This document shows positions 1 to 24,817 of a stretch of DNA of 27,916 nt, piece by piece (within the stretch, counting starts at the first letter, position 1; every line of letters begins with the position of its first letter). The notes under the pieces are model-generated. The model worked only from the letters and a program-made list of their open reading frames with translations, searched no databases and was not told the origin of the DNA. A program made the translations under genes and the position numbers. The DNA comes from a virus. Location of the stretch: the IMG/VR virus record IMGVR_UViG_3300025592_000053, positions 1 to 27,916 of that record. The stretch is one strand, 5' to 3'.

Positions 1-1747
1 AAGTTAACATATATGTGTTAAGCTTCGATCCCATCCAACCACCGAAGTCAGTAAGCCATTTAGGCATCGATTCTTTTATAGTTTCCCATGACGGTAAATT
101 TAATTTAAACGAGTTAAGCTTCGATCCCATCCAACCACCGAAGTCAGTAAGCCATTTAGGCATCGATTCTTTTATAGTTTCCCATGACGGTAAATTTAAT
201 TTAAACGAGTTAAATGCATTTACTATATATCCTTTAGGATCCTTCCAGAAGTCACCGAACTCAGCTTTTATAGTTTCCCATGACGGTAAATTTAATTTAA
301 ACGAGTTAAATGCATTTACTATATATCCTTTAGGATCCTTCCAGAAGTCACCGAACTCAGCTTTTATAGTTTCCCATGACGGTAAAAGATCCCTCACAAG
401 TTGTCCTATTTTAGCGAAAAATTCGGGTATAGCTTTGAATATATTATCAATTGATTCTGAGAAAGAGAATTCATCCATCTTCTTCTCTAGGTCGGTACCT
501 CCAAAGAACCCCACAATCCACGAAATTACACTCTTAATGAGATCAAGAGGAGCACCGATAACACTCTTGATAACACCTTTATTAAAATTAAGAATGCCTG
601 TGCCTATATCACCAGCTTTAAAATCATCTACACTAGATCGGAAACCTTCATATATACCCATCACTGCAGTTAATGGCCAAGCAATCTTACCTAGAATAGT
701 TGCAAACTTACCTAAAAATGTACCTGCTTTCGATAGAGTAGTGCCAAGTGTTCCAGCTTTAGCAGCTTTAGCAGCTTTAGCAACTTCATCTTTTTTAGGC
801 ATTAGAAGAGATAACCCACCAGTTGCAGCAGCTATTGTAGCAGTTTTAGCTACTGCCCCAACACTTTTAATCACATTTCCAATAGAACTTGTTGCTGCCT
901 TCATGAGATTCCAAGCTTTACTATTCTTTATGGTATCTGTTATAGTGTTAATCCGAGAGGCAATGTTACCACTGAACTCCTTTACAGCATTAGAGGCGTT
1001 AAAGAGAGCTCCTCCTAATTTAGTTTTCTTTACTGATTCTGTTATAGCTACACTGCTAGCTTTAATACTATTTCCCCATTTACTCCAGGCGGCTGTAACT
1101 GCGGCGATTGTAGGGAATATAGAAGGAATCTTATTAACGTATGATGATAAACTTTCTTTAACATCATTCCAAGCAGCTGCAATTTTATCCCAATTATTAT
1201 ATATACTTTCTAGAGCAACTAAACCAGCTCCAATTGCGATCTTAGTACCATGCTCCTTTAACTTATCAACCACTGTTTGTTTAGCTTTACCTAAGCCATC
1301 TTTGATCTTAACCTTAGATCGCATAGCCACCCCTTTCAAACCAGGAGTCATATCTGCTCTATGTTCTGCTCTTTCACGTTCCTTCTTAGCCAAAACCTCT
1401 ACTTTATCAGCAGCATCTTTAGCTGCTTCAATATCCATATCAGTTAATTTATCAGCGTGTGCTTTAGCTTCTTCAGCAAGCCTATCTGCATTTGATAGAC
1501 TTGCATCGTGCATTATATCTTTTGTGAGTTGCTCTTGTTTGAAATGTAGATCAGCAGCTCGTGTTGCAGATTCCACTCCTGATCTCATTTCTTCTCGAAT
1601 GTTTTTAGCGATATCACCAAAAGCGTCAGGTGTATTATTCTGAGCTGGTATCATTTTCGATACTGTTTCAATTAATTCTTTATGACGATTAGCCTCATTC
1701 TGATCATTATCTTTAATTTGATTCACGATAGGTAATTTATTTGGCAT
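1..1747 (-). CDS. Tape-measure-like tail protein, C-terminus beyond the window
   Basis: Reading from the ATG at 1747 the minus frame stays open to the window edge, giving about 582 residues (starts MPNKLPIVNQ). Residues ~55-125 are an Ala/Lys/Glu-rich helical, coiled-coil-like stretch. Hydrophobic helices follow, for example IAIGAGLVALESI and later VISWIVGFFGG. The last ~125 residues are four 32-residue units that each begin LPSWETIK. Its position directly after a tube-fold gene and a gp26-like gene with a frameshift extension is where a tape measure protein sits in long-tailed phages, and the long helical, partly hydrophobic composition fits. T4 gp29 (590 residues) would be the functional counterpart, but no gp29 signature was recognised. 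The start overlaps the end of the -1 frame extension by 11 nt. A different long virion protein, or one with an enzymatic C-terminus outside the window, cannot be excluded. Confidence 0.65.
   Translation of the reverse strand, partial: MPNKLPIVNQIKDNDQNEANRHKELIETVSKMIPAQNNTPDAFGDIAKNIREEMRSGVESATRAADLHFKQEQLTKDIMHDASLSNADRLAEEAKAHADKLTDMDIEAAKDAADKVEVLAKKERERAEHRADMTPGLKGVAMRSKVKIKDGLGKAKQTVVDKLKEHGTKIAIGAGLVALESIYNNWDKIAAAWNDVKESLSSYVNKIPSIFPTIAAVTAAWSKWGNSIKASSVAITESVKKTKLGGALFNASNAVKEFSGNIASRINTITDTIKNSKAWNLMKAATSSIGNVIKSVGAVAKTATIAAATGGLSLLMPKKDEVAKAAKAAKAGTLGTTLSKAGTFLGKFATILGKIAWPLTAVMGIYEGFRSSVDDFKAGDIGTGILNFNKGVIKSVIGAPLDLIKSVISWIVGFFGGTDLEKKMDEFSFSESIDNIFKAIPEFFAKIGQLVRDLLPSWETIKAEFGDFWKDPKGYIVNAFNSFKLNLPSWETIKAEFGDFWKDPKGYIVNAFNSFKLNLPSWETIKESMPKWLTDFGGWMGSKLNSFKLNLPSWETIKESMPKWLTDFGGWMGSKLNTYMLT
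17..386. repeat. Four 96-bp direct repeats (32 codons) inside the tape-measure-like gene
   Basis: Units begin at 17, 113, 209 and about 305. Units 1 and 2 are one type and units 3 and 4 another. All four share the half that encodes NSFKLN-LPSWETIK, while the other half differs between the pairs. Identity within each pair is essentially complete as far as read by eye, and 96 is a multiple of three so the frame is kept. This indicates recent in-frame duplication. Confidence 0.9.
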
Positions 1748-2608
1748 TCTCTTTTTCCATTTCTTTTAAGTGCTTTAACAACAATCCAACATATACTTCT
1801 CGTTCCCAAGGAACCAAACTCTCAATTTCTGTCAAGCTCCACTTATGATGTTGTATAAGGCTAAAATTTATTTCAAAATAAGATTTTAAATCATGAGTGA
1901 AGCTAATTAAAAAAACGAAGATAGACCCTCAAGTCGTATTACATTTACAGTATTACAAATTGGACATGGCATAGTAGCTTCGTATACAGTTTTCGGCATA
2001 TTAGCCATAAACTCATTAACCTTTTTAAATACAGTATCAGGTAAACTCTCAACAAAACTCATCAACTCCTCATCTGTATAATCAGATGGTTTATGTACAA
2101 CATCCCCTTCATATATAGACTTAATTAAATGAATAACAACGTTGAACATCTTATCTATATCTGTATCCCCATTTACCATCTCTAAATTATCCCCAGACGG
2201 GTATCTCAACTCCATACCAATATTTTCTGTAATCTCGATTAATGGATTAGGTTTATCTTTAAGATCAACTTGAACTTTGTTGAGATCAATTTCTATAGGT
2301 ATTTCCTCATCACATTTCGTACACCGTTTAGTAGCATTGATAGTATCCCCAACACTCTTCTGTCTCATTTTAATGAACATATATTCAATATCAAAGAACG
2401 GAAGATCACTAAGATTTTTAATATTTCCAAATGTACAATTATCAATAATCTGTAATATAGCTGACACCATAGCTTTTTCATCTTTAGACTCAAGAGCCAT
2501 CAAGAGAATCTTCTCTTCTTTAACTGTGAAACTTCTGTATTTCCATTTCTTCTTAGATGACGGAAGAGTTAGATTAAATGTTGCTTGTTGTATCTGTGGT
2601 AATGCCAT
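1737..2608 (-). CDS. Predicted -1 frameshift product of the gp26-like gene (gp51/GpGT-like long form)
   Basis: Slipping back one base on the T7 run at 1915-1909 bypasses the TAA at 1909-1907 and adds 57 codons, from 1910 to the TAA at 1739-1737, giving about 290 residues. The extension starts LISFTHDLKSYF, contains SLTEIESLVPWEREVY and ends in a charged helix KHLKEMEKENAK. It resembles the small gp51-type hub assembly proteins of marine T4-like phages (from memory). It has no ATG or GTG near its start: the -1 frame opens after a TGA upstream of the slip site and its first ATG is codon 51. The end overlaps the tape-measure-like start. This matches the G/GT tail chaperone arrangement of lambda. 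The slip itself is inferred, not shown. Confidence 0.6.
1907..1917 (-). promoter_or_regulatory. Candidate -1 ribosomal slippery site (T7 run before stop)
   Basis: On the minus strand the zero frame reads TCG TTT TTT TAA. Tandem TTT TTT codons allow both tRNAs to re-pair after a -1 shift, and the UAA directly in the next codon would provide a pause. The downstream -1 frame is open for 58 codons including its stop. No strong stem-loop was identified just downstream. Confidence 0.6.
1907..2608 (-). CDS. gp26: gp26-like baseplate/tail assembly protein (short form, T4_baseplate family)
   Basis: A 233-residue protein starting MALPQIQQATFNLTLP, with AAAGGA as Shine-Dalgarno 9 nt before the ATG at 2608; an upstream TTG in frame is less likely. 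The N-terminal signature (LTLPSSKKKWKYRSFTVKEEK) is the one seen in T4-type gp26 base plate proteins, which take part in making the baseplate hub. Two CxxC pairs (CTKC, CPIC) in the C-terminal half could form a zinc site. The gene ends TCG-TTT-TTT-TAA, so translation terminates directly after a seven-T run where a -1 slip would continue into another open frame (separate entry). It lies 18 nt or so downstream of the tube-fold gene and just upstream of the tape-measure-like gene, the place tail assembly chaperones occupy in other phages. T4 gp26 is 208 residues. Confidence 0.8.
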   Translation of the reverse strand: MALPQIQQATFNLTLPSSKKKWKYRSFTVKEEKILLMALESKDEKAMVSAILQIIDNCTFGNIKNLSDLPFFDIEYMFIKMRQKSVGDTINATKRCTKCDEEIPIEIDLNKVQVDLKDKPNPLIEITENIGMELRYPSGDNLEMVNGDTDIDKMFNVVIHLIKSIYEGDVVHKPSDYTDEELMSFVESLPDTVFKKVNEFMANMPKTVYEATMPCPICNTVNVIRLEGLSSFF

Positions 2609-2632: not shown

Positions 2633-3226
2633 TTAATTCTTAACTAAAATTTCATGTTTTCTGTAAGCGAAATTCACTTGAAAATCACTAACTTCTGATG
2701 TCGGACCACTCGTATACGTTTTTGGAGTAATATTTAATGGGTATATATCATGAAACTTAGTCGTCATGATAGTATTAAATTGACGATCTAAATCTTTCAA
2801 TATACAAGATGATATATAATCATCATAATACATGATAGTATCTTGCTTTAAGGAACTATCAACAAAAGCTGATCCCTGCATACCCATTATCCACGCATCC
2901 ATTAAACCAAACAAATTGTGATCATCTGCATTCAAGAATGTTACCTCTAAATCTGATTCATGCCCTATACCCGTAACAGGTTTAATATGATTAAACCCAT
3001 CCCCAACTCTAGGTATATTAGTAGCTGAGTATGGAGAGTATGTAACTCCTTTAACGTATACATCCGCAGTAGGGAAAACTTCAGAAGCGTTTGTTAGCGT
3101 TCGCCCTTCCCAAAACTGTGTCTCGAGTACTTTCGGGAAACCAGTGAAACTAAAACTGTACAGATTATCTCGTGCTAGATCATTCCCCGATTTAAATACA
3201 GTTGATGTAAAATGTGATATATTCAT
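2633..3226 (-). CDS. Tail-tube-fold protein (gp19/gp54 type)
   Basis: A 197-residue protein. The N-terminal pattern DNLYSFSFTGFPK, an internal Asp-rich segment (LEVTFLNADDHNLFGLMDAWI) and the closing SDFQVNFAYRKHEI are typical of the T4-type tube fold shared by gp19 (tube), gp48 and gp54 (baseplate tube). T4 gp19 is 163 residues and gp54 320, so length does not decide between them. It is the first of three genes ending with the tape-measure-like gene. GATAAATA stands 6 nt before its ATG and no Shine-Dalgarno is visible, so it probably begins its own late transcript. It could be the main tube protein or a baseplate-proximal tube ring. Confidence 0.6.
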   Translation of the reverse strand: MNISHFTSTVFKSGNDLARDNLYSFSFTGFPKVLETQFWEGRTLTNASEVFPTADVYVKGVTYSPYSATNIPRVGDGFNHIKPVTGIGHESDLEVTFLNADDHNLFGLMDAWIMGMQGSAFVDSSLKQDTIMYYDDYISSCILKDLDRQFNTIMTTKFHDIYPLNITPKTYTSGPTSEVSDFQVNFAYRKHEILVKN

Positions 3227-4395: not shown

Positions 4396-5397
4396 TTATG
4401 TGGTATAATAATAAAAACCAACATCTCTCCACGTCTTTCTGGTAAAATTCTCCCCTAGTGATTGAAGAAACGGACTTCTAATAAATGATTTGTTGCAGAT
4501 GGTAGCATCTAGATTTTTAAAATATCTCCGAATTATTCTAAGTGATGTGCAACAACCATACACACTCTTAATAGCGTGATGTAAATCTACAATCGTGTGA
4601 TACTCTCCAACTCCTTTGAATCCATAACACTTGTGTCCATAATTGGTCTCTAATCTTTTCCGTGTTTGCTCCTTACCAATAGTAGCCTTCCATGTTTCAT
4701 CACTAACAGTTGCAACTTGTTTAGCTATACCCTCTTTACCAATAGTAGCCTTCCATTCAGGATCACTAAATATTTTAAGTTGTTTAGCTATACCCTCTTT
4801 ACCAATAGTAGCCTTCCATTCAGGATCACTAATCGTTTTAGATCGTTTAATCATACCCTCTTTACCAACAGTTGCCATCCACTCAGGATCATTAATCGTT
4901 TTAGATCGTTTAATCATACCCTCTTTACCAACAGTTGCCTTCCACTTAGGATCATTAATCGTTTTAGATCGTTTAACCATACCCTCTTTACCAACAGTTG
5001 CCTTCCACTTAGGATCATTAATCGTTTCACATTGTTTAGCTGTAGACTCAGGAGTATTAGTCATGTTGCAGTTAGCATAAGATAAATTGTAAAATAATGG
5101 ATTAGAAGCTACTTCGTGGTCTCTCTGTAAAAACTCTTCATACTCAAGACACTCTTTAGAGTTATTAAACGTTTTAACTACAACACGTTCTAATTGAGAT
5201 GAGCACACATCTTGAAGACTTCTGAAATATTTAACATATGATGATCCAAAATATCTGTGATTTTCGGGATCAATGTTATTTTCTTGAAGTTCCTTCCGAG
5301 TAGATGATCCAATATAATACCTCTCTGTTCCTATAGGATTAAGATCAGTAATAAGATAAACGTAAAAATTGTTACCATTATAAATAGACGTATGCAT
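4396..5397 (-). CDS. GIY-YIG homing endonuclease with six 21-residue repeats
   Basis: A 333-residue free-standing endonuclease. The GIY-YIG domain is at the N-terminus: FYVYLIT (Y12, Y14), then RYYIGSSTRKEL with the likely catalytic Arg, and ECLEYEEFLQ with a Glu further on. Residues ~120-245 are six copies of a 21-residue unit of the form DPKWKATVGKEGMIKRSKTIN, probably a DNA-reading linker like the NUMOD helices of phage endonucleases. The C-terminal ~80 residues (AIKSVYGCCTSLRIIRRYF) may be a helix-turn-helix-type module. It sits between gp4 and the divergent gp48/54 gene, in an intergenic insertion typical of such elements. Its N-terminal ~105 residues are closely similar to the broken copy at 11111-12082, but the C-terminal parts differ. 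The frame looks intact. Confidence 0.85.
   Translation of the reverse strand: MHTSIYNGNNFYVYLITDLNPIGTERYYIGSSTRKELQENNIDPENHRYFGSSYVKYFRSLQDVCSSQLERVVVKTFNNSKECLEYEEFLQRDHEVASNPLFYNLSYANCNMTNTPESTAKQCETINDPKWKATVGKEGMVKRSKTINDPKWKATVGKEGMIKRSKTINDPEWMATVGKEGMIKRSKTISDPEWKATIGKEGIAKQLKIFSDPEWKATIGKEGIAKQVATVSDETWKATIGKEQTRKRLETNYGHKCYGFKGVGEYHTIVDLHHAIKSVYGCCTSLRIIRRYFKNLDATICNKSFIRSPFLQSLGENFTRKTWRDVGFYYYTT
4667..5044. repeat. Six 63-bp tandem repeats in the endonuclease gene
   Basis: Repeat starts fall at 4667, 4730, 4793, 4856, 4919 and 4982, marked by the phase-conserved CCCTCTTTACC (weaker in the first). Each encodes 21 residues with the core W-K-A-T-V/I-G-K-E. The central units are the most alike, and the outer ones have diverged. 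Confidence 0.9.
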
Positions 5398-9214: not shown

Positions 9215-10798
9215 ATGACACAAACACGAATCGGTTACACTTGTCAAATGGGTGATCCAATGGCTTTCTCAGAGGCTGAATGTTTAGCATCAGGAGGTAA
9301 TTGGATTGGCCAAGAGGTTCCAGCTGGAGTACCTGATTTTGGGAGTATCACTGGTGGTGGTTTTAACAATACTATAGATAATGCTGATTCTTTCTTACGT
9401 TTCCCTGGTCAAGATAAACTTAATAGTATATCAAGTCTAGGTACATCAATGAATGCATCACATAAAATAGGCTACACTAATCCATCACAGCTAAACCTTG
9501 CTGGTTTTGTACCAAATGATCAAGTGAAGATTAAAGCGGCTTTGTCTAAAATCGACACTCTTGCTAATAATACCTCAGTATGTTCTCAAGTGGTTCAGAA
9601 TATTGTAGATAAGAACGTAACTGATGTTCCTAAGAATACAGCAATATTAGATGCATACAAAACAGCATCTAAATTAATTGATTGTGGAGAAGGTCTCGAT
9701 GTGGTGATGAAAGGAGAGAATCTTCTCGATGAATTCACATCTACATCCAACTTAACATCAGTTGAATCTTCAATAGACAAAATAACAAATAGCATGAACT
9801 CTGATCTTTTTACAGCATTACCTAGTTCAGATGGACCTGTAATGAGTTGTGTATGTCATGGAGGAGATCCCTTTGATGGGAATGAAACTGATTGTCTATC
9901 TAATGGAGGGGAATGGAGGTGTCAAGAAGTATCAGGTTCTGCTGCGAATACATTTAATATAGACTTTATGAACAACATAAACAGTATAGATAACGTCGCA
10001 GATGACATGGATGGAGCGTGTAATAAACTCCAAGGGGCAGTTGAAGCTCTTCATGCTAAAGGTGTTGCATTGGTTGCTAAAGCAACTGGTTATCTTGAGA
10101 AAATGAGCAAACTCTCTAGTTTGAGTGTATCAACTGGTCCTTGTGGGGAGATTATTGAAGCATTGATACCAGACGAGGCTAAATCATATTTACCATTAAT
10201 CAGTAACGCTCTCAAAGGATTGCCACCTCAAGGGGGAGGAGAGAGTTGTGTATGTCATGGAGGAGATCCCTTTGACGGGAATGAAGCTGATTGTATATCT
10301 AATGGTGGGGAATGGAGATGTCAAACCATCGAAAGTGATACTCCTATCACATCAAATGCTCCATATACTGAATTTTTACCTACAATACCCCAAATTCCTA
10401 CAATCCCAACATCAACCGTAACGAATAATGTGAAGATTCCCATTAACATAAGTGCTAAGATAACTACAGTGGAACTGAATACACTATCTAGTATATCATC
10501 TATTACACCTAGTATTAATACACCTAGTATTAATACACCTGTTGTGAATGGTATCGGAGGTAATCTATTCAGCACCATATCTAATAAGATAAGTTCATTA
10601 GTACCAGTTAATAATGTAAGTTCCTCAGTTGATACTAGTGGATTTAATATCAATTCAATAGAATCTTCATTTAATATTACACAAGGGATAAACAGTCCTG
10701 CTCTATTTAATGGTAATCAACCTGAGCCTTGGACAAAAGCTGACGGAAGTAAAATGACTAGAGCAGAAATTGATGCTGCTCAAGCGGAGTATATGTAA
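9215..10798 (+). CDS. Uncharacterised hub/spike-adjacent virion protein with three C-C-W minidomains
   Basis: A 527-residue protein I do not recognise; AGGAG precedes its ATG. Three copies of a cysteine minidomain are visible: C10-C23-W30, C214-C227-W234 and C347-C360-W367. The last two are nearly identical at about 25 residues (CHGGDPFDGNE...CxSNGGEWRC). Between them lie helical stretches rich in Ser, Asn, Leu and Lys (LTSVESSIDKITNSMN and MDGACNKLQGAVEALHAKG). Residues ~385-500 are Thr/Ser/Ile/Asn/Pro-rich and low complexity with a duplicated PSINTPSINTP. The C-terminus EPWTKADGSKMTRAEIDAAQ looks like a small helical cap. It lies between gp5 and PAAR with its stop overlapping the PAAR start, which suggests a partner of the spike complex. 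This is inference from position only. Confidence 0.6.
   Translation: MTQTRIGYTCQMGDPMAFSEAECLASGGNWIGQEVPAGVPDFGSITGGGFNNTIDNADSFLRFPGQDKLNSISSLGTSMNASHKIGYTNPSQLNLAGFVPNDQVKIKAALSKIDTLANNTSVCSQVVQNIVDKNVTDVPKNTAILDAYKTASKLIDCGEGLDVVMKGENLLDEFTSTSNLTSVESSIDKITNSMNSDLFTALPSSDGPVMSCVCHGGDPFDGNETDCLSNGGEWRCQEVSGSAANTFNIDFMNNINSIDNVADDMDGACNKLQGAVEALHAKGVALVAKATGYLEKMSKLSSLSVSTGPCGEIIEALIPDEAKSYLPLISNALKGLPPQGGGESCVCHGGDPFDGNEADCISNGGEWRCQTIESDTPITSNAPYTEFLPTIPQIPTIPTSTVTNNVKIPINISAKITTVELNTLSSISSITPSINTPSINTPVVNGIGGNLFSTISNKISSLVPVNNVSSSVDTSGFNINSIESSFNITQGINSPALFNGNQPEPWTKADGSKMTRAEIDAAQAEYM
9845..9925. repeat. 81-bp direct repeat, copy 1 (C-C-W minidomain)
   Basis: This segment matches 10244-10324 at all but about five positions by eye. 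It encodes the second of three cysteine minidomains in the same protein. The near identity points to recent duplication or gene conversion. Confidence 0.85.
10244..10324. repeat. 81-bp direct repeat, copy 2 (C-C-W minidomain)
   Basis: Second copy of the 9845-9925 segment, 399 bp downstream in the same reading frame. Confidence 0.85.
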
Positions 10799-12600: not shown

Positions 12601-12638
12601 AATCATAACTCTAATACATCCATGAAAATACCCATATT
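12601..12638. repeat. 38-bp direct repeat, copy 1 (3' end of DUF285 gene)
   Basis: Identical to 13461-13498. It marks the shared 3' ends of the two DUF285 copies and shows that the locus arose by tandem duplication. Confidence 0.9.
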
Positions 12639-13466
12639 CTTATAAGATCCCCATTTTTTATTATAATCTTTAAAGTCTATAGCATTTATCTTATTACCAT
12701 AGAACATTAAATTCATACCAACGACATTAGATACATCCCAATTGCTTATATCATCAGTGAACTTAGAATCTCTAAACATCGAATTCATACCAACGACATT
12801 AGATACATCCCAATTGCTTATATCATCAGTGAACTTAGAATCTCTAAACATCGAATTCATATTAGTTACTTTAGATGTATTCCAATCACTTATATCATCA
12901 TCGAACTTAGAATTTCGAAACATCGAATCCATCATAGTAACATTAGATACATCCCAGCCACTTATATCACCATTAAAGACAGAATCACTGAACATAAAAC
13001 TCATATTGGTAACATTAGATACATCCCAGCCACTTATATCACCATTAAAGACAGAATCACTGAACATAAAACTCATATTAATTACATTAGATACATCCCA
13101 CTCACTTATGTCACCATTAAAATTAGAGTTTTTGAACATTGAATTCATATATTTAACTTTAGATACAACCCATTTACTTATATCACCATTAAAGACAGAA
13201 TCACTGAACATAAACCACATATTATCAACACTAGATACATCCCACTTACTTATATCACCATTAAATTGTGAATTATTATATAACATATAACTCATGTCAG
13301 TAACATTAGATACATCCCATTTACTTATATCTCCATTGAACTTAGAACTACTGAACATAAAACTCATATCACGAACATTTGAGACATCTAAGTCATTAAG
13401 ATCAGCATCATCAGCTCTCTCTTTAATTATACTTTTTAAATGTTTATTATCTTTAACTTTAATCAT
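12603..13466 (-). CDS. DUF285 repeat-solenoid protein (moron candidate)
   Basis: A 287-residue protein built of ten repeats of 24-25 residues of the form WDVSNVTDMSYMF...FNGDIS, the DUF285 (PF03382) repeat known from mycoplasma surface proteins and various bacterial proteins, usually without known activity. The N-terminal ~25 residues (MIKVKDNKHLKSIIKERADD) are a charged helix, and the C-terminus ends YNKKWGSYKNMGIFMDVLEL. There is no signal peptide or membrane segment. Neighbouring repeats are nearly identical at DNA level in places. It is antisense to the surrounding baseplate genes, with its stop 2 nt from that of gp25. Its ATG overlaps the TGA of a truncated upstream paralog, so the two were once coupled behind a sigma70-like promoter. 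It is not a known baseplate component; accessory cargo is more likely. Confidence 0.8.
   Translation of the reverse strand: MIKVKDNKHLKSIIKERADDADLNDLDVSNVRDMSFMFSSSKFNGDISKWDVSNVTDMSYMLYNNSQFNGDISKWDVSSVDNMWFMFSDSVFNGDISKWVVSKVKYMNSMFKNSNFNGDISEWDVSNVINMSFMFSDSVFNGDISGWDVSNVTNMSFMFSDSVFNGDISGWDVSNVTMMDSMFRNSKFDDDISDWNTSKVTNMNSMFRDSKFTDDISNWDVSNVVGMNSMFRDSKFTDDISNWDVSNVVGMNLMFYGNKINAIDFKDYNKKWGSYKNMGIFMDVLEL
12717..13400. repeat. 72-75-bp tandem repeats of the DUF285 gene
   Basis: About ten units with a 72-bp period (one of 75). Two adjacent pairs are almost identical, for example the units starting at 12717 and 12789. The repeat marker on the plus strand is ACATTAGATACATCCCA. Confidence 0.85.
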
Positions 13467-18294: not shown

Positions 18295-19374
18295 ATGACT
18301 GCAATTGTAACAACATCAATAAGAACTACTCAATTAACTAACTTTATTAATGCGTTTAATGAAGAGACAACAAGTGATGATTTCAAAAGTCTGTATTTGG
18401 CATTATGTAAAGATACTCCTTGGGATGATGATGCTTCTGGGCGTAATGAAGATGACCCTGGTTTCGCAGTACCATTAGTCAATGAAGATGATATTGATTT
18501 GATGTGGGATGATGTGTTAACATTCAAACGCATATTCATTGAGAATATTAATCCTGTTGTACCTGAGTGTACTTACATCAGCGGAGATAAATGGGCATGG
18601 GATGGCCTCAATCTATCATCTGGTGTCTGGGAACAATCATTTAATGGATTTAGTATTAAAAAGAGTGTTATGCGTAACTCTGAAGGACGAGTGTATCAAT
18701 GTATACAAGAACCATTAAATGGCACTTGTTATATTGGAGGAACAGAAACATCTCATTTGGATAGAGATGTATGTGAATCCAATCCAGGAGCTACATGGAT
18801 ACCAGAAAAAGCTACAATGGAACCTATCGGACTTCCAACTCAAAAGGGAGAAGTCTTAACATTCGGTAACTATCAATGGGAGTATCTATGGACTCTTGAT
18901 AGTAACACTATAATTGATAAAGTTAATTATTGGTGGCAGCCTATATCTTATAATTTATACTCAGAAGGCGGAGTTTGTTACATAGATGGTGTTCTAGACA
19001 CATCACACCAAACTCAAGAATCTTGTGAAGCCGAACCATTAAGTAACTGGACATATACATCAATACCATTCTTTGAGCAAGATGTATATGGGATTGATCC
19101 TGATTTAGCAGTTATCAAGACAAAGGCTATTAATATGATGATTGAGACTACTTTAACATCAGATAACATCGGAATCGATATTGATACATTCAGACAAATA
19201 TTCTTAGTGGATACACCCTATACACTTGATAATGAAAAGGCTTTTGAAAGTGTAATTCAACCATCTGATATGAGTTCTGATGTATCAGGGAATGTCTTTG
19301 TGATGGAGAATAAATTACCAGTTATACGCTCAGAAGATTCGAGAGAGTCTATAAAATTGATATTACGATTCTGA
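18295..19374 (+). CDS. gp8: Baseplate wedge protein gp8 with two cysteine minidomain insertions
   Basis: A 359-residue protein (T4 gp8 is 334). The gp8 pattern is clear: ATIVTTSIRTTQ-type start, FKSLYLALCKDTPWDDD, FAVPLVNEDDIDLMWDDV, then RVYQCIQEP, MEPIGLPT and YQWEYLWTL, and a C-terminal VIRSEDSRESIKLIL. Two segments do not belong to the T4 scheme: C145-C160-W168 lies between the YQC strand and the MEPIG strand, and C228-C244-W252 follows later. Both have the spacing of the minidomains in the 9215-10798 protein. gp8 dimers bind the gp10-gp7 part of the wedge. AGGT precedes the ATG, and the gene starts right after the previous stop. Confidence 0.87.
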   Translation: MTAIVTTSIRTTQLTNFINAFNEETTSDDFKSLYLALCKDTPWDDDASGRNEDDPGFAVPLVNEDDIDLMWDDVLTFKRIFIENINPVVPECTYISGDKWAWDGLNLSSGVWEQSFNGFSIKKSVMRNSEGRVYQCIQEPLNGTCYIGGTETSHLDRDVCESNPGATWIPEKATMEPIGLPTQKGEVLTFGNYQWEYLWTLDSNTIIDKVNYWWQPISYNLYSEGGVCYIDGVLDTSHQTQESCEAEPLSNWTYTSIPFFEQDVYGIDPDLAVIKTKAINMMIETTLTSDNIGIDIDTFRQIFLVDTPYTLDNEKAFESVIQPSDMSSDVSGNVFVMENKLPVIRSEDSRESIKLILRF

Positions 19375-19420: not shown

Positions 19421-22400
19421 ATGACAACACCTACTAATGGCGATTTTAACACTAATCCCTATTTCGATGACTTTGAAGCTAATAAAAACTTTATGCAAGT
19501 TCTCTTCAAACCAGGTCAAGCAGTACAAGCTAGAGAGTTAACACAATCCCAAACAGTGATACTTGAACAATTGAAGTCTATGAGCTCTCATCTGTTCACT
19601 GACGGAACACCAGTCATTAATGGTAAATTAACAATCAATAAGAATCAACGTTGGTTGCTTGTTAATCAAATTGATATGAATGTTGGATTGAAAAATCAAA
19701 TTATTATAGGTTTATCATCAGGTGCTAAAGCCATTGTAGAGCATCTACACGCTGATTATAATAATGAACCATATCTATACATCAAAGAGATTGGAGGCAC
19801 TTTCTTCGAAGGCGAAACAATCGAAACTGTTGGATTCTCAAGTCCTGAACTGTCTATAACATTACAAGGATCACAAACACTTACTAGTATATATGAATCT
19901 GAGTTTGGAGGCACTTCTACATTTGCATCTAATGATGATGGTATATACGCTATTAGTGGTAAATTTGTTCCTACATACGCTCAAACTATCATGGTTGATA
20001 AAAACAGTGGTAAAGCCTCCTCTAAGGTTGGATTTACTATTGTTAAAGAAATCATAACTGCAGTTGTTGATAACACTTTACTAGATCCAGCACATGGCTT
20101 CTACAATTATAATGCCCCTGGTTCTGATCGTTACAAAATCACTTTAACATTATCAACTAGAGTTGATCATGATATCAATACACCAACTTTAGACTTCATT
20201 GATTTAATGACTCTATTTGAGGGTGATATTAGTGCTAACATTGATCGTACTTATAATGCTGTTCTTGAGGAAACTATAGCTAGAAGGACTTATGATGAAT
20301 CCGGAAACTATACAACCAAGATATTTCCTATATCATTAATCAACAACATACCTAATGAAGCAATCGATCCTGACAAATTTGTAGTTAAATTAGATCCAGG
20401 AAAGGCTTATGTACATGGATATGAAATTGAAAGTAAAGGTCCACTGTACCTTGAAGACACTAAAGCACGAACTTTTGAACGGAAGAATAATGGTGCTCAT
20501 TTACATAGTATAGGTCCTTACGTTGAATTAGCTTATGATCTAGACCCAGAGAATTCCTCTAAAACTTATAACGATAAGTGGGCTTTTGATGTAAGTAAAC
20601 AAGAATTAGTTGAGTTTTTGGATAGTTCTGGTACTGTTTTATTTGATACTAGAATGAAACATATTATAGACGGGAGAATGTATCTATGTTCAAGTTGTGA
20701 TGATTTCGCGCTTATGAGATCAGCTAAAACAGTTAGAAGCGTCGCTTATCCAGTTGATAGAGTAGCAACACTATCATTAACAGATGATATTGTTATATTA
20801 CAAGGGCTTGATAGGATATCTAATCCATCAATATTAAAATTGCCTGAAAGTAATATTAAAACTGTGATGAATAATGAAACACATTTCTCAGCCCATAAAA
20901 CGTATCACACTGTTAATGTAAGTAGTAACACAGCATCTTTCACAACAGGTTCAAGTCAGATTACAATAAGTAAAATAATTCAAGTAGTAAACGATCTTAC
21001 TCATTATGTGATTGATCCAGGAACATACAATGCAGGTATAACAGGTATAGGAACGAATTCAGTTTCTATTGATTTCGGTTCATTAAGCGGATCAGTTAAT
21101 ATTATAACTGAACTTAGTATAGGCCAAAGTAACCATATCACCAAAACATTAACTATTAATACAGAATCATTGAGTGCAGTAGATGGTATCATAACATTAA
21201 GTAATTTCGATGTATATGATATAATATCTATTGAAGGTTCAACATCAGGAGATGTGAAGAGTAAATTTAGAGTTAATAATGGTCAACTTGATCATCTATA
21301 CAATTATGGCTCTTTGACTTGGAATGATGCTAATCCGATTCAATCTGAAACATTTAGTATAGAGTATAGATACTTCGCTCATGGTAATAGTGGAGAGTAT
21401 TTTAGCGTTGATTCATACACAAATTCATATGATAATACTGTTACTGGGTTTACTGATCTTCCTATACCATACGAGAATGATGAACTTCGTTATGTGAATG
21501 AAGCAGCATCTAGTACATATTATCTAAGAGATACTTTAGACTTTAGAGCTAATATCAATAGCATCGAAAACGGCAAATATATGCCGATTGTTGATACTTT
21601 AGTATACGCTGATTATGATTACTATATACCCAGAATTGATTTAGTTACCATTTCAGCAGATGGTAGTTTCTCAGTTGTTAATGGTGTTCCTGATATGAAC
21701 GCAGTTGAACCTAATCTACAAGGCGATACACTCCTTCTCTATAAACTATTCATACCAGCATATACATTCACCACTAGTCATATTGGTATAGAGTCTATGG
21801 ACACTAAACGATATACAATGAGAGATATTGGTAAACTCGAGAAACGTATTGACATAGAAGAGTATTATACTAGTTTGAGTCTGTTAGAGCAACAAGCTAT
21901 TGATATGAGTATCTTAGATGCTAATGGATTAGATCGGTACAAGAATGGTGTATTGGTAGATAATTTTACAGGTCATGGAGTTGGTGACGTAGAGCATGAA
22001 GAGTATAATGTATCTGTAGATAGTACAACTGGTACACTTAGAATGCCGTTCAAGCAGCATATGATTGATATGGAACAAGCGGGAGAGAACGATTCAGATG
22101 TAGCATGGAATGGTAACACTGCTTCATTGAGCTTCAGTTCAGTGTCTTACATTGAGCAATTGCAAGCTAGTCAAGTGATGAACGTGAATCCATATAATGT
22201 ATTTGCTTGGCAAGGTTCAATGACACTACAGCCAGATACTGATAATTGGGTTGATACTGAAACTAATCCTGATGTATTAGTGAACTTTGATGGTAATATG
22301 GATAACTGGTTCACTGATGATGGCTGGAATTCTAGTTGGAATAGTTGGCAGGATAACGTAACTGGTGTAAATCTGAATACAGTTAGTAACTCCACTTCAC

Positions 22401-24817
22401 GAAATGAATTGGTTGATGTTACTTGGCGAGATAGACGGAATGATACGATAACAACAACAACAGACACCACATCATTAAACGTCACAACATCTTCATCAAG
22501 AAGTGGTCTGAGATCAAGAACAATTCCAGAGACAGTTACAGAGTCTTTAGGTAATCGTGTGGTTGATATATCAATCGTGCCTATGATGCGTGGAAATGTA
22601 TTACATTATAAAGCAACTGGATTGAAACCTAATGTATCACTTCACGCTACATTTGATGGAGAACAATCTGATTTACATTGCACTAACCTTCTATCTGATG
22701 TGAATGGTACATGTGAAGGCGATTTTGAATTCCCATCAGGTGTTTTTAGAACAGGAGAACGCTTATTCCGTTTAACTGATAGTTTATCTGATCCAACGAC
22801 TAGTGCCGAATCAGCGTATGTAGCATCAGGATTACTCCAAACTCAAGAAAGGACAGTTGCTAGTGTAACATCATTTAGAACTGAAGTAGAATCGTTGTTT
22901 GAGAGTGGAGCTAGCTCAACTACAGATGCAGACGTAGTTAATACATCATCATCAGTATCTAGACAAACAGGAAGAGCATTCAGATGGAGAGATCCTCTAG
23001 CACAAAGCTTCTTAGTATCCAATAAAGATGGTGGTATATTCTTAACTAGCTTAGAGATATACTTCAGAAGTAAAGATGATGCAATCCCATGTTTAATCGA
23101 AATCCGTGAAATGGTTAATGGTTATCCTGGTCAAATTATCCTACCATACTCTACAGTGTCTCTGAATCCAGACGACATTACGGTTACAGGTAATGAGTAT
23201 GCGCCTGTTAATAGCACTACATTCTCATTCACTGATCCCGTGTTCCTAAGCAATAACACTGAGTATTGTTTTGCTATAATAAGTGACTCAGATGGATATG
23301 AAGTTTATACTGCTAAGATTGGAGATGGAGAAGTTCAAGCTGATGGTATTCAAGGACCTAGGATTAATAAACAACCTTATATGGGTGTTATGTTTAAATC
23401 TCAAAATGGTTCAACTTGGACTGCTGACCAGAATATGGACATCACATTCAAAATGAATCGAGCTGCGTTCCTTAATGATGGAGTGATAAACTTCTATAAT
23501 ACTGGATGGGATGATCAAGCTGCTGATGGATCTGAACACATCAATATTACCACTATGATGCCTACGATTGAGGAGATGAGTCTTGGAAACTCAGCTATTA
23601 CATGGGAGCTCAGATTCAAAGAAGGCTCAAATGAACTTAATCTTGGATGGACTCCATTCACTCCATTCACCAATGATGATCTCCAAGACCTTATCGAGTT
23701 GATGGGTGAACCTGGTGCATCTGATCCCACACAGGTACATATCAGAGGTACAATTGAAACATTGAATGATAATGTAAGTCCTATCATTAATACAAGCAGA
23801 GTTGGTTTGATAGCAGTGGCTAATACAGGTACTGTTGCTGGTAAATGTACTATTGCGGGTCAGAAAGCGTTTGATATAGGAACCGATGCAGAATGTGATA
23901 GTGCAGGAGGATTGTGGGAAACAGATGAAACTAATTTCACAATTGAAGGTAATTATGTAACTAGATCAGTTGAATTAGAGGACCCTGCCGAAAATATTAA
24001 TGTATGGTTAACTGCTGATAAACCTCAAGGTACTGCAGTTGATTTATATTATAGTACAGGAGGAACGATTAAACGATACATCGAACTTCAAGACGGTATC
24101 AACACTTATACAGATGGATATAGCTTAGTATACGTGAATGATTTTGAGAAACAGTATGTACACTTCTACACATCAGATAATATAGCATTCACAGTGCCTG
24201 ATGCTGGAGCGTTATATGGCAGCCTTTCTGCTTACGGTACAAGAGCATATGCTAATAGAGATCGTGATCATGGTGTAGCTAACGAGAAACGCTTATATCT
24301 AGTCAATATAGATGACGTAGCTCAAGTACAATATGGCGGCTGGATGTCCAATGAAGATTTAAGAGATTCGGTTGATTGGGACACTTCTGATACATATATA
24401 GAAGGTGATGTTATCAGACACTCATCAGGCAATTTTTATAAGTGTTTAATCAGTAATACTGCTATTGAACCAACTGTCACTAGCTATTGGCGTGATTCTT
24501 GGGATAAAGTTATTCTAATTCGAGTACAGAGTGGTCCTGCTTCTCCTGTTGCAAAGGATAGAGCATTAATTAGTGAAGATAAAGTAACTTGGATGCCTAT
24601 GGAAGCAGTAGAGACAAGTAGCTTTAAACAAGCTCAACAAGCTGCAAGCACAACTGGCGGAGAAGAAGTGAGTTCAGGTTTTGTTGAATATGAGTACTCA
24701 ACAGCTGATAAAATTGAAGACCCATTTAGCGTATTTAGAATCAAAGTGGTGTTGAAAGCTTTAAATGCTGCAAGAGTTCCAGGCGTGAGAAGTTTTAGAG
24801 CAGTTGCCAGTTTATGA
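19421..24817 (+). CDS. Giant DUF4815-family baseplate/virion protein
   Basis: A 1798-residue protein. The N-terminus (YFDDFEANKNFMQVLFKPG, QAVQARELTQSQTVILEQL, SHLFTDGTPVINGK) is the start of DUF4815 proteins, common in T4-like marine phages next to gp8. A later segment, DPLAQSFLVSNKDGGIFLTS, EIYFRSKDDAIPCLIEIRE, MVNGYPGQIILPYSTVSL, and the C-terminal FSVFRIKVVLKALNAARVPG and VRSFRAVASL are equally typical. Residues ~1030-1060 (NTITTTTDTTSLNVTTSSS) are a Thr/Ser linker with flanking helices, probably the bend between two arms. A cysteine minidomain, C1476-C1492-W1499, is inserted near the C-terminus. The likely role is the outer wedge, replacing T4 gp10/gp9, and holding fibres. Its last codons overlap the next start. 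Confidence 0.82.
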   Translation: MTTPTNGDFNTNPYFDDFEANKNFMQVLFKPGQAVQARELTQSQTVILEQLKSMSSHLFTDGTPVINGKLTINKNQRWLLVNQIDMNVGLKNQIIIGLSSGAKAIVEHLHADYNNEPYLYIKEIGGTFFEGETIETVGFSSPELSITLQGSQTLTSIYESEFGGTSTFASNDDGIYAISGKFVPTYAQTIMVDKNSGKASSKVGFTIVKEIITAVVDNTLLDPAHGFYNYNAPGSDRYKITLTLSTRVDHDINTPTLDFIDLMTLFEGDISANIDRTYNAVLEETIARRTYDESGNYTTKIFPISLINNIPNEAIDPDKFVVKLDPGKAYVHGYEIESKGPLYLEDTKARTFERKNNGAHLHSIGPYVELAYDLDPENSSKTYNDKWAFDVSKQELVEFLDSSGTVLFDTRMKHIIDGRMYLCSSCDDFALMRSAKTVRSVAYPVDRVATLSLTDDIVILQGLDRISNPSILKLPESNIKTVMNNETHFSAHKTYHTVNVSSNTASFTTGSSQITISKIIQVVNDLTHYVIDPGTYNAGITGIGTNSVSIDFGSLSGSVNIITELSIGQSNHITKTLTINTESLSAVDGIITLSNFDVYDIISIEGSTSGDVKSKFRVNNGQLDHLYNYGSLTWNDANPIQSETFSIEYRYFAHGNSGEYFSVDSYTNSYDNTVTGFTDLPIPYENDELRYVNEAASSTYYLRDTLDFRANINSIENGKYMPIVDTLVYADYDYYIPRIDLVTISADGSFSVVNGVPDMNAVEPNLQGDTLLLYKLFIPAYTFTTSHIGIESMDTKRYTMRDIGKLEKRIDIEEYYTSLSLLEQQAIDMSILDANGLDRYKNGVLVDNFTGHGVGDVEHEEYNVSVDSTTGTLRMPFKQHMIDMEQAGENDSDVAWNGNTASLSFSSVSYIEQLQASQVMNVNPYNVFAWQGSMTLQPDTDNWVDTETNPDVLVNFDGNMDNWFTDDGWNSSWNSWQDNVTGVNLNTVSNSTSRNELVDVTWRDRRNDTITTTTDTTSLNVTTSSSRSGLRSRTIPETVTESLGNRVVDISIVPMMRGNVLHYKATGLKPNVSLHATFDGEQSDLHCTNLLSDVNGTCEGDFEFPSGVFRTGERLFRLTDSLSDPTTSAESAYVASGLLQTQERTVASVTSFRTEVESLFESGASSTTDADVVNTSSSVSRQTGRAFRWRDPLAQSFLVSNKDGGIFLTSLEIYFRSKDDAIPCLIEIREMVNGYPGQIILPYSTVSLNPDDITVTGNEYAPVNSTTFSFTDPVFLSNNTEYCFAIISDSDGYEVYTAKIGDGEVQADGIQGPRINKQPYMGVMFKSQNGSTWTADQNMDITFKMNRAAFLNDGVINFYNTGWDDQAADGSEHINITTMMPTIEEMSLGNSAITWELRFKEGSNELNLGWTPFTPFTNDDLQDLIELMGEPGASDPTQVHIRGTIETLNDNVSPIINTSRVGLIAVANTGTVAGKCTIAGQKAFDIGTDAECDSAGGLWETDETNFTIEGNYVTRSVELEDPAENINVWLTADKPQGTAVDLYYSTGGTIKRYIELQDGINTYTDGYSLVYVNDFEKQYVHFYTSDNIAFTVPDAGALYGSLSAYGTRAYANRDRDHGVANEKRLYLVNIDDVAQVQYGGWMSNEDLRDSVDWDTSDTYIEGDVIRHSSGNFYKCLISNTAIEPTVTSYWRDSWDKVILIRVQSGPASPVAKDRALISEDKVTWMPMEAVETSSFKQAQQAASTTGGEEVSSGFVEYEYSTADKIEDPFSVFRIKVVLKALNAARVPGVRSFRAVASL

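Follow-up and report, generated by a model that had tools for sequence, protein, structure and literature searches.

Overlapping reading frames at a gp26-like gene

We analyzed a 27,916-nucleotide (nt) stretch of viral DNA (IMG/VR record IMGVR_UViG_3300025592_000053, positions 1 to 27,916; hereafter the window), in which a gp26-like gene and a gp51-like extension in its −1 frame very probably form a tail chaperone pair of the G/GT type by programmed −1 frameshifting. The gp26-like gene starts with an ATG at 2608 and stops with a TAA at 1909-1907 (Table 1). Its 3′ end reads CTT GAG GGT CTA TCT TCG TTT TTT TAA, ending on a run of seven T as a preliminary description of the locus had it. The −1 frame opens 19 nt before the gp26 stop, and the 57 further codons (LISF...ENAK) that a −1 slip was said to open run to a TAA at 1739-1737. 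They encode LISFTHDLKSYFEINFSLIQHHKWSLTEIESLVPWEREVYVGLLLKHLKEMEKENAK and contain, as described, neither ATG nor GTG; two TTG codons lie 81 and 99 nt into the frame.

The tail tube, gp26-like, and tape-measure-like genes are consecutive on the minus strand. As in G/GT-type pairs, two overlapping frames lie directly upstream of the tape measure (the next open reading frame [ORF] matches phrog_8462 and phrog_305), and the long form would consist of the short form plus a C-terminal domain added by the −1 shift. The extension had been described as ending exactly at the tape-measure start. The tape-measure gene is indeed next, but the extension stops 11 nt within its ORF (the ATG of which starts at 1747), leaving an 11-nt overlap.

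The gp26-like protein matched PF12322 (T4_baseplate; E = 1.1e-58, 199 bits against a curated cut-off of 24.5) and phrog_150 (4.1e-60), which identifies it as a T4-like gp26. A 58-residue piece of the −1 frame (1746-1919) matched phrog_634, the "baseplate hub assembly catalyst" (gp51), at 2e-23, in agreement with the gp51-like character first assigned to it; the same piece weakly matched the C-terminal end of phrog_150 (gp26; 9e-4). No Pfam family matched the extension above its cut-off.

An AlphaFold2 model of the gp26-like protein built from 62 aligned sequences (predicted local distance difference test 92.7, predicted template modeling score 0.86) points to a chaperone fold for the short form. 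Residues 1-86 of the model matched the HK97 tail assembly chaperone 2ob9 (Z = 7.9, root-mean-square deviation 4.0, 84 aligned residues). The top row was 3fgx, an uncharacterized Bacillus protein matched by residues 5-95 (Z = 8.3), and the row after 2ob9 had a Z of 4.9. These scores come from re-alignment to the top 1000 PDB chains of Foldseek, and a Z of approximately 8 can reflect a common arrangement. Plain Foldseek returned nothing from the PDB at E ≤ 0.001, and sequence search of the PDB gave nothing convincing (best E = 0.15). Among predicted viral structures there were 60 matches at E ≤ 0.001, and the named ones within the first twelve were baseplate hub proteins (gp26-type).

A frame of such length would stay open by chance in approximately 1.3% of cases at the base composition of the window. 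Among 21 other coding sequences (CDSs) of the window that were checked, however, nine also had a −1 frame open for at least 57 codons beyond the stop, in most cases because the next gene, starting at the stop, was being read. Openness alone is therefore weak evidence; the real evidence for the extension is its conservation, as judged by sequence comparison.

Table 1. Features of the frameshift locus and its neighbors in the window
Feature	Positions	Strand	Basis
gp26-like gene, short chaperone form (TAC-N), 233 amino acids	1907..2608	minus	PF12322, phrog_150, AlphaFold model
−1 frame extension, gp51-like domain, C-terminal part of putative long form (TAC-NC)	1737..1910	minus	phrog_634
Slip site G TTT TTT T, with the remainder of the UAA stop immediately after it	1909..1916	minus	sequence; outside canonical T_TTT_TTN register
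Shine-Dalgarno (SD)-like GAGGG, ~10 nt upstream of slip site	1926..1930	minus	sequence; family-wide codon bias
Predicted RNA stem, 9 + 5 bp outer helices	1835..1904	minus	minimum free energy −17.2 kcal/mol, shuffles
Tape-measure-like gene, cut by window end	2..1747	minus	phrog_8462 9.4e-6, phrog_305 2.2e-4
Tail tube gene, upstream of gp26-like gene	2633..3226	minus	phrog_45 tail tube 3.9e-20

Frame arrangement and heptamer in relatives

Relatives were compared in two sets. The set read by eye had 89 rows: the best 80 IMG/VR contigs, the phages S-CREM1, S-ShM2, P-SSM4, phiM12, and phiAS5, and four more contigs of the window's clade. In all 89 rows the −1 frame was gp51-like and the stop was preceded by an FF pair; the heptamers were T_TTT_TTC (64 rows), T_TTT_TTT (20 rows), and G_TTT_TTT (5 rows, all from the near-identical window clade). 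The automated pass covered 230 loci, a sample that leans toward kin of the query (best 80 per scan) and is not phylogenetically independent. It included four loci obtained with the phiAS5 gp26 query, all close to phiAS5, and 25 loci from a DNA-pattern scan for non-T sites, in which neither profile was present. The pattern of that scan was unable to match the window itself, and nothing about the absence of G_TTT_TTT from other loci follows from the scan.

A gp51-like ORF was found in 201 of the 230 loci and lay in the −1 frame of the gp26 ORF in 199 of them. The first of the two exceptions was the T4-type phage G8, the gp51 ORF of which matched both profiles in one frame. The second was a 2.3-kb contig (L190; L numbers denote loci of this analysis) with a gp26 frame that is broken upstream; its junction reads as −1. 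Removal of exact duplicates gave 175 −1 sites, the window included, and 146 sites with a T-run were left at 85% identity.

The preliminary description had proposed that homologs be checked for the poly-T slip site, and they do keep it: the canonical T_TTT_TTN was present in 172 of the 175 sites (138 T_TTT_TTC, 27 T_TTT_TTT, 6 T_TTT_TTA, and 1 T_TTT_TTG, the last from Rhizobium RL38J1), even where the residue became Leu (the TTA and TTG sites). The three remaining sites were the single G_TTT_TTT, which is that of the window, and two sites without a T-run. With sites lacking TTTTT excluded beforehand and relatedness ignored, codon usage gave a probability of approximately 1e-52 for a T before the run and a TTT codon at all 145 nonredundant non-window T-run sites.

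These counts bear on the possibility that the fusion arises during transcription, with RNA polymerase adding a U on the seven-T run and the longer mRNA being translated normally. One added U would join both frames directly, and the position of T7 outside the ribosomal register would be irrelevant to a polymerase. In relatives, however, the run is mostly only six T followed by C (138/175), 172/175 sites keep it in a fixed register with the reading frame, which a polymerase does not require, and polymerase slippage usually needs longer runs. We regard this explanation as improbable.

The gp51 domain could alternatively be an independent protein that arises by reinitiation or has its own start. 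It is annotated as its own CDS in several records, and a TAATG or TGATG junction was found with a T-run (VH7D, RL38J1, and L047) or without one (Cygsa01, YC, and K362). The preliminary description held that homologs with a separate start would contradict frameshifting. Such starts do occur: the −1 frame has an early ATG or GTG, no more than 24 nt in, at 56 of the 146 nonredundant sites, and the three outlying phages without a T-run have TAATG. None of the 56 early starts, however, had an SD-like sequence (cut-off, a duplex of −6 kcal/mol or better in 12 nt). In the window the frame has no ATG or GTG, and the first TTG would halve the domain. A separate protein would also leave the conserved heptamer unexplained, and we consider it very unlikely.

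Several loci differ at the junction. In Pseudomonas Cygsa01 (L094), Vibrio YC (L098), and Vibrio K362 (L009), a gp51-like −1 frame without a T-run has TAATG at the junction, which suggests coupling. In the Salmonella phages selz and Maynard (L008 and L101), the gp51-like −1 frame lacks a T-run as well as any ATG or GTG within 30 nt. The distance from the first base of the TTT codon to the 0-frame stop is 30 nt in 9 of the 146 sites (L017, L024, L025, L029, and others), compared with the usual 9 nt (112/146), and in these nine the overlap between the gp26 and gp51 frames is larger.

Slip-site register and RNA context

Apart from the T-run at 1915-1909, the window has no run of at least seven A or T. 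Counting both strands, there is a single TTTTTTY, compared with 15.7 (standard deviation 5.7) in dinucleotide shuffles; slip-prone T or A runs seem to be avoided in the window, the slip site excepted. The site is not a canonical X_XXY_YYZ heptamer in the 0 frame (G_TTT_TTT), and the window is the only one of the 175 distinct sites that has a T-run in a broken register.

This register and the error-proneness of homopolymers could suggest that the run really has six or eight T, the gene being decayed or the sequence misread or misassembled. Five IMG/VR contigs, however, are identical across the 872 bases of gene plus extension and share G_TTT_TTT, so the slip site is not an error of a single assembly, although these contigs are near-identical strains (99.2-100% over 4.1-5.6 kb). 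With six T, gp51 would fall in the +1 frame; with eight, the two would be fused in a single frame. Neither is the pattern of relatives, and a stop directly after the FF pair also occurs in L028 and L047. An error or decay is extremely unlikely.

The closest relative among the matches listed (L015, 50% identical) reads AAT TTT TTC GTC TAA and, in a tree built from 66 of the 146 sites, groups with the window (support 100/71, below the starred level). The G before the run is most simply derived, since all other T-run sites in the set have T at this position. Among the matches listed, no contig had an identity to the window gp26 of more than 50% but less than 100%, and no transitional slip site was seen there.

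An SD-like GARGG lies approximately 10 nt upstream of the slip site in the family. The Glu five codons upstream is encoded by GAG in 68 of 96 sites, compared with 27% gene-wide, and the Gly four codons upstream by GGG in 27 of 144 sites, compared with 6%. Compared with synonymous shuffles, the sites form the stronger duplex with the anti-SD (mean z = −1.20, standard error of the mean 0.11, n = 146). Downstream, the RNA of the family was more folded than synonymous shuffles, with a mean z of −0.77 to −1.19 at lengths of 30-60 nt (146 sites, window included) and of −1.35 to −1.58 at 66-99 nt (145 sites, window excluded). Rfam gave no match at E ≤ 1 in the window between 1700 and 2700.

The predicted stem of the window lies downstream at a distance of 5 nt from G_TTT_TTT and of only 2 nt from the UAA codon. 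In dinucleotide shuffles of 85 nt its z was −3.3, with 1 of 200 shuffles as good. As good as the stem were 1, 1, 3, and 12 of 400 synonymous shuffles at 75, 81, 90, and 99 nt, respectively (z = −4.1, −3.4, −2.5, and −2.0).

Programmed −1 frameshifting yielding a G/GT-type chaperone pair is, with high probability, the best explanation of the locus. It is supported by comparison of sequences: the frame arrangement, the slip signal, the conserved extension, and the N-terminal chaperone fold. From these we infer production of the fusion, the ratio of short to long forms, and their role. Most ribosomes would stop at the UAA and release the short gp26-like form of 233 amino acids, whereas a minority would slip back by one base on the U-run and add the 57 codons to give a gp26-gp51 fusion of 290 amino acids. 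The slip may be aided by upstream contact with the anti-SD and by the downstream RNA stem. By analogy with lambda gpG and gpGT, coating of the tape measure would fall to the short form and recruitment of tail tube subunits to the long form.

Some observations weigh against this explanation. The window lacks the base that would make its heptamer canonical. Its own anti-SD duplex is ordinary (−5.8 kcal/mol, z = −0.5 against synonymous shuffles). It is no more folded than shuffles at 30, 36, 48, 60, and 66 nt, the stem appearing only from 75 nt, and this stem was first noticed in a plain 80-nt fold, so that the lengths were in effect chosen afterwards. A downstream fold shared by the family was rejected, as no consensus emerged over the 146 sites (alifold 0.0) and the individual folds differ. 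Among relatives, 2 of the 175 −1 sites had no T-run (Pseudomonas Cygsa01 and Vibrio YC), and four gp26 loci (L008, L009, L095, and L101) had no gp51-like ORF at E = 1e-3. Read by eye, three of the four (L008, L009, and L101) lack a T-run but retain a −1 frame that is gp51-like. In the other, Stenotrophomonas IME-SM1 (L095), the gp26 ORF is longer (280 amino acids), and a gp51-like stretch at approximately 2313 (...YLDEMHPFELELQS...) is in its +1 frame.

We claim that the site of the window works like a canonical heptamer without being one. In this phage, the −1 frameshift would be either a tandem slip at G_UUU_UUU or a single P-site slip at the UUU beside the UAA, and both would yield the identical protein. 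In the tandem slip, tRNA-Phe in the P site would move onto GUU and be mismatched at the first position; in the P-site slip, re-pairing from the second UUU would be perfect, but UAA would occupy the A site. The predicted downstream stem may compensate for the noncanonical register. Its 5-nt spacing from G_TTT_TTT is nearer to that of known tandem slip sites, which argues somewhat against pure slippage at the stop codon. It is possible, if somewhat doubtful, that the lineage has left the tandem two-tRNA heptamer for a "shifty stop" −1 shift, in which peptidyl-tRNA-Phe slips on the U-run with UAA in the A site and a strong downstream stem replaces the lost base.

The preliminary interpretation thus stands in its main parts (gp26, gp51, the −1 frame, and the slip signal); it had missed the register, the stem downstream, and the SD-like sequence before the slip site.

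Other features of the window were observed outside this locus or within its neighbor. The tape-measure-like gene contains 96-bp tandem repeats at 17-386 (two arrays, 100% matches), and a 5.5-kb alignment of contig L011 with this region of the window had 13 gap openings. An ORF at 4396-5397 on the minus strand contains 63-bp tandem repeats (unit ...DPKWKATVGKEG...) and matched no Pfam family above its cut-off. A DUF285-repeat protein (PF03382, 3e-74; the family is named from Mycoplasma) is encoded at 12603-13466 on the minus strand, on the opposite strand amid the tail genes. A short Cys-rich module, C...G...C...W, was seen by eye in three predicted proteins of the plus strand (9215-10798, 18295-19374, and 19421-24817).

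Known tail chaperones and the place of this site

Vladimirov, Gautam and Davidson (Virology 566:9-15, 2022) reportedly identified gp26/gp51 as the tail assembly chaperones of T4-like phages, and frameshifting is said there to be conserved in several T4-like groups, with T4 itself using genes 26 and 51. PMC12846349 states that poly-T slip signals are known in the TAC-N genes of T4-like phages, crediting Vladimirov 2022, and describes a Vandenendeviridae tape measure chaperone with a −1 frame and a GTTTTT motif that is invariant. The preliminary statement that no firmly described case was known for this pair in T4-like phages is, on that account, doubtful. The PRFect paper (PMC10885494) cites Vladimirov 2022 for T4-like phages in which frameshifting is replaced by two genes, a short one and a separate fused one. 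A 2016 review calls G/GT frameshifting widely conserved "except T4" (PMC5009743), and a table lists T4 genes 26 and 51 as hub assembly chaperones (PMC3004832). Among the literature titles listed, there was none on G_TTT_TTT for gp26/gp51, nor another that names frameshifting of this pair, although a mention inside article texts is possible. Frameshifting of gp26/gp51 is already known; the window adds a new member of this kind, one with an odd slip site.

The locus has the same two domains, order, and −1 frame as the T4-like gp26/gp51 chaperones of Vladimirov 2022, and shares their poly-T signal as credited in PMC12846349. It differs from them in the slip site: T_TTT_TTN in 172 of the 175 sites examined, but G_TTT_TTT with the stop adjoining in the window. 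T4 genes 26 and 51 are homologous to it. In the T4-type phage G8, the gp51 ORF weakly matched both the gp26 profile (57-235, E = 5e-4) and the extension profile (249-285, E = 6e-4), and it is a separate gene on the strand opposite to gp26; G8 therefore needs no frameshift. In the Felix-O1-like phage Moogle (KM236239), a joined tape measure chaperone CDS is annotated, and AGT TTT TTC lies in frame near the end of the short form, giving a T_TTT_TTC heptamer. The Moogle and Vandenendeviridae chaperones do not belong to the gp26 family by annotation, and Moogle, unlike the window, keeps the canonical register.

The lambda slip site is G_GGA_AAG, unlike that of the window, and in the model gp26 has an extra region (approximately residues 89-230) beyond the chaperone fold. 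Lambda gpG and gpGT are likewise short and long forms made by −1 frameshifting, and bind the tape measure (PMC5009743).

For the family, a wide metagenomic sample supports the −1 joining of gp26 and gp51 in many T4-like phages other than T4, and a "gp51" that is recorded separately in such a phage may be half of a fusion. The comparison also supplies signals that can be measured, namely the heptamer, the SD-like codons, and the stems. The window is a natural exception to a near-invariant heptamer and can be used to probe the limits of the P-site pairing rule. If the "shifty stop" proposal is true, the ratio of the two chaperone forms would be set by termination efficiency.

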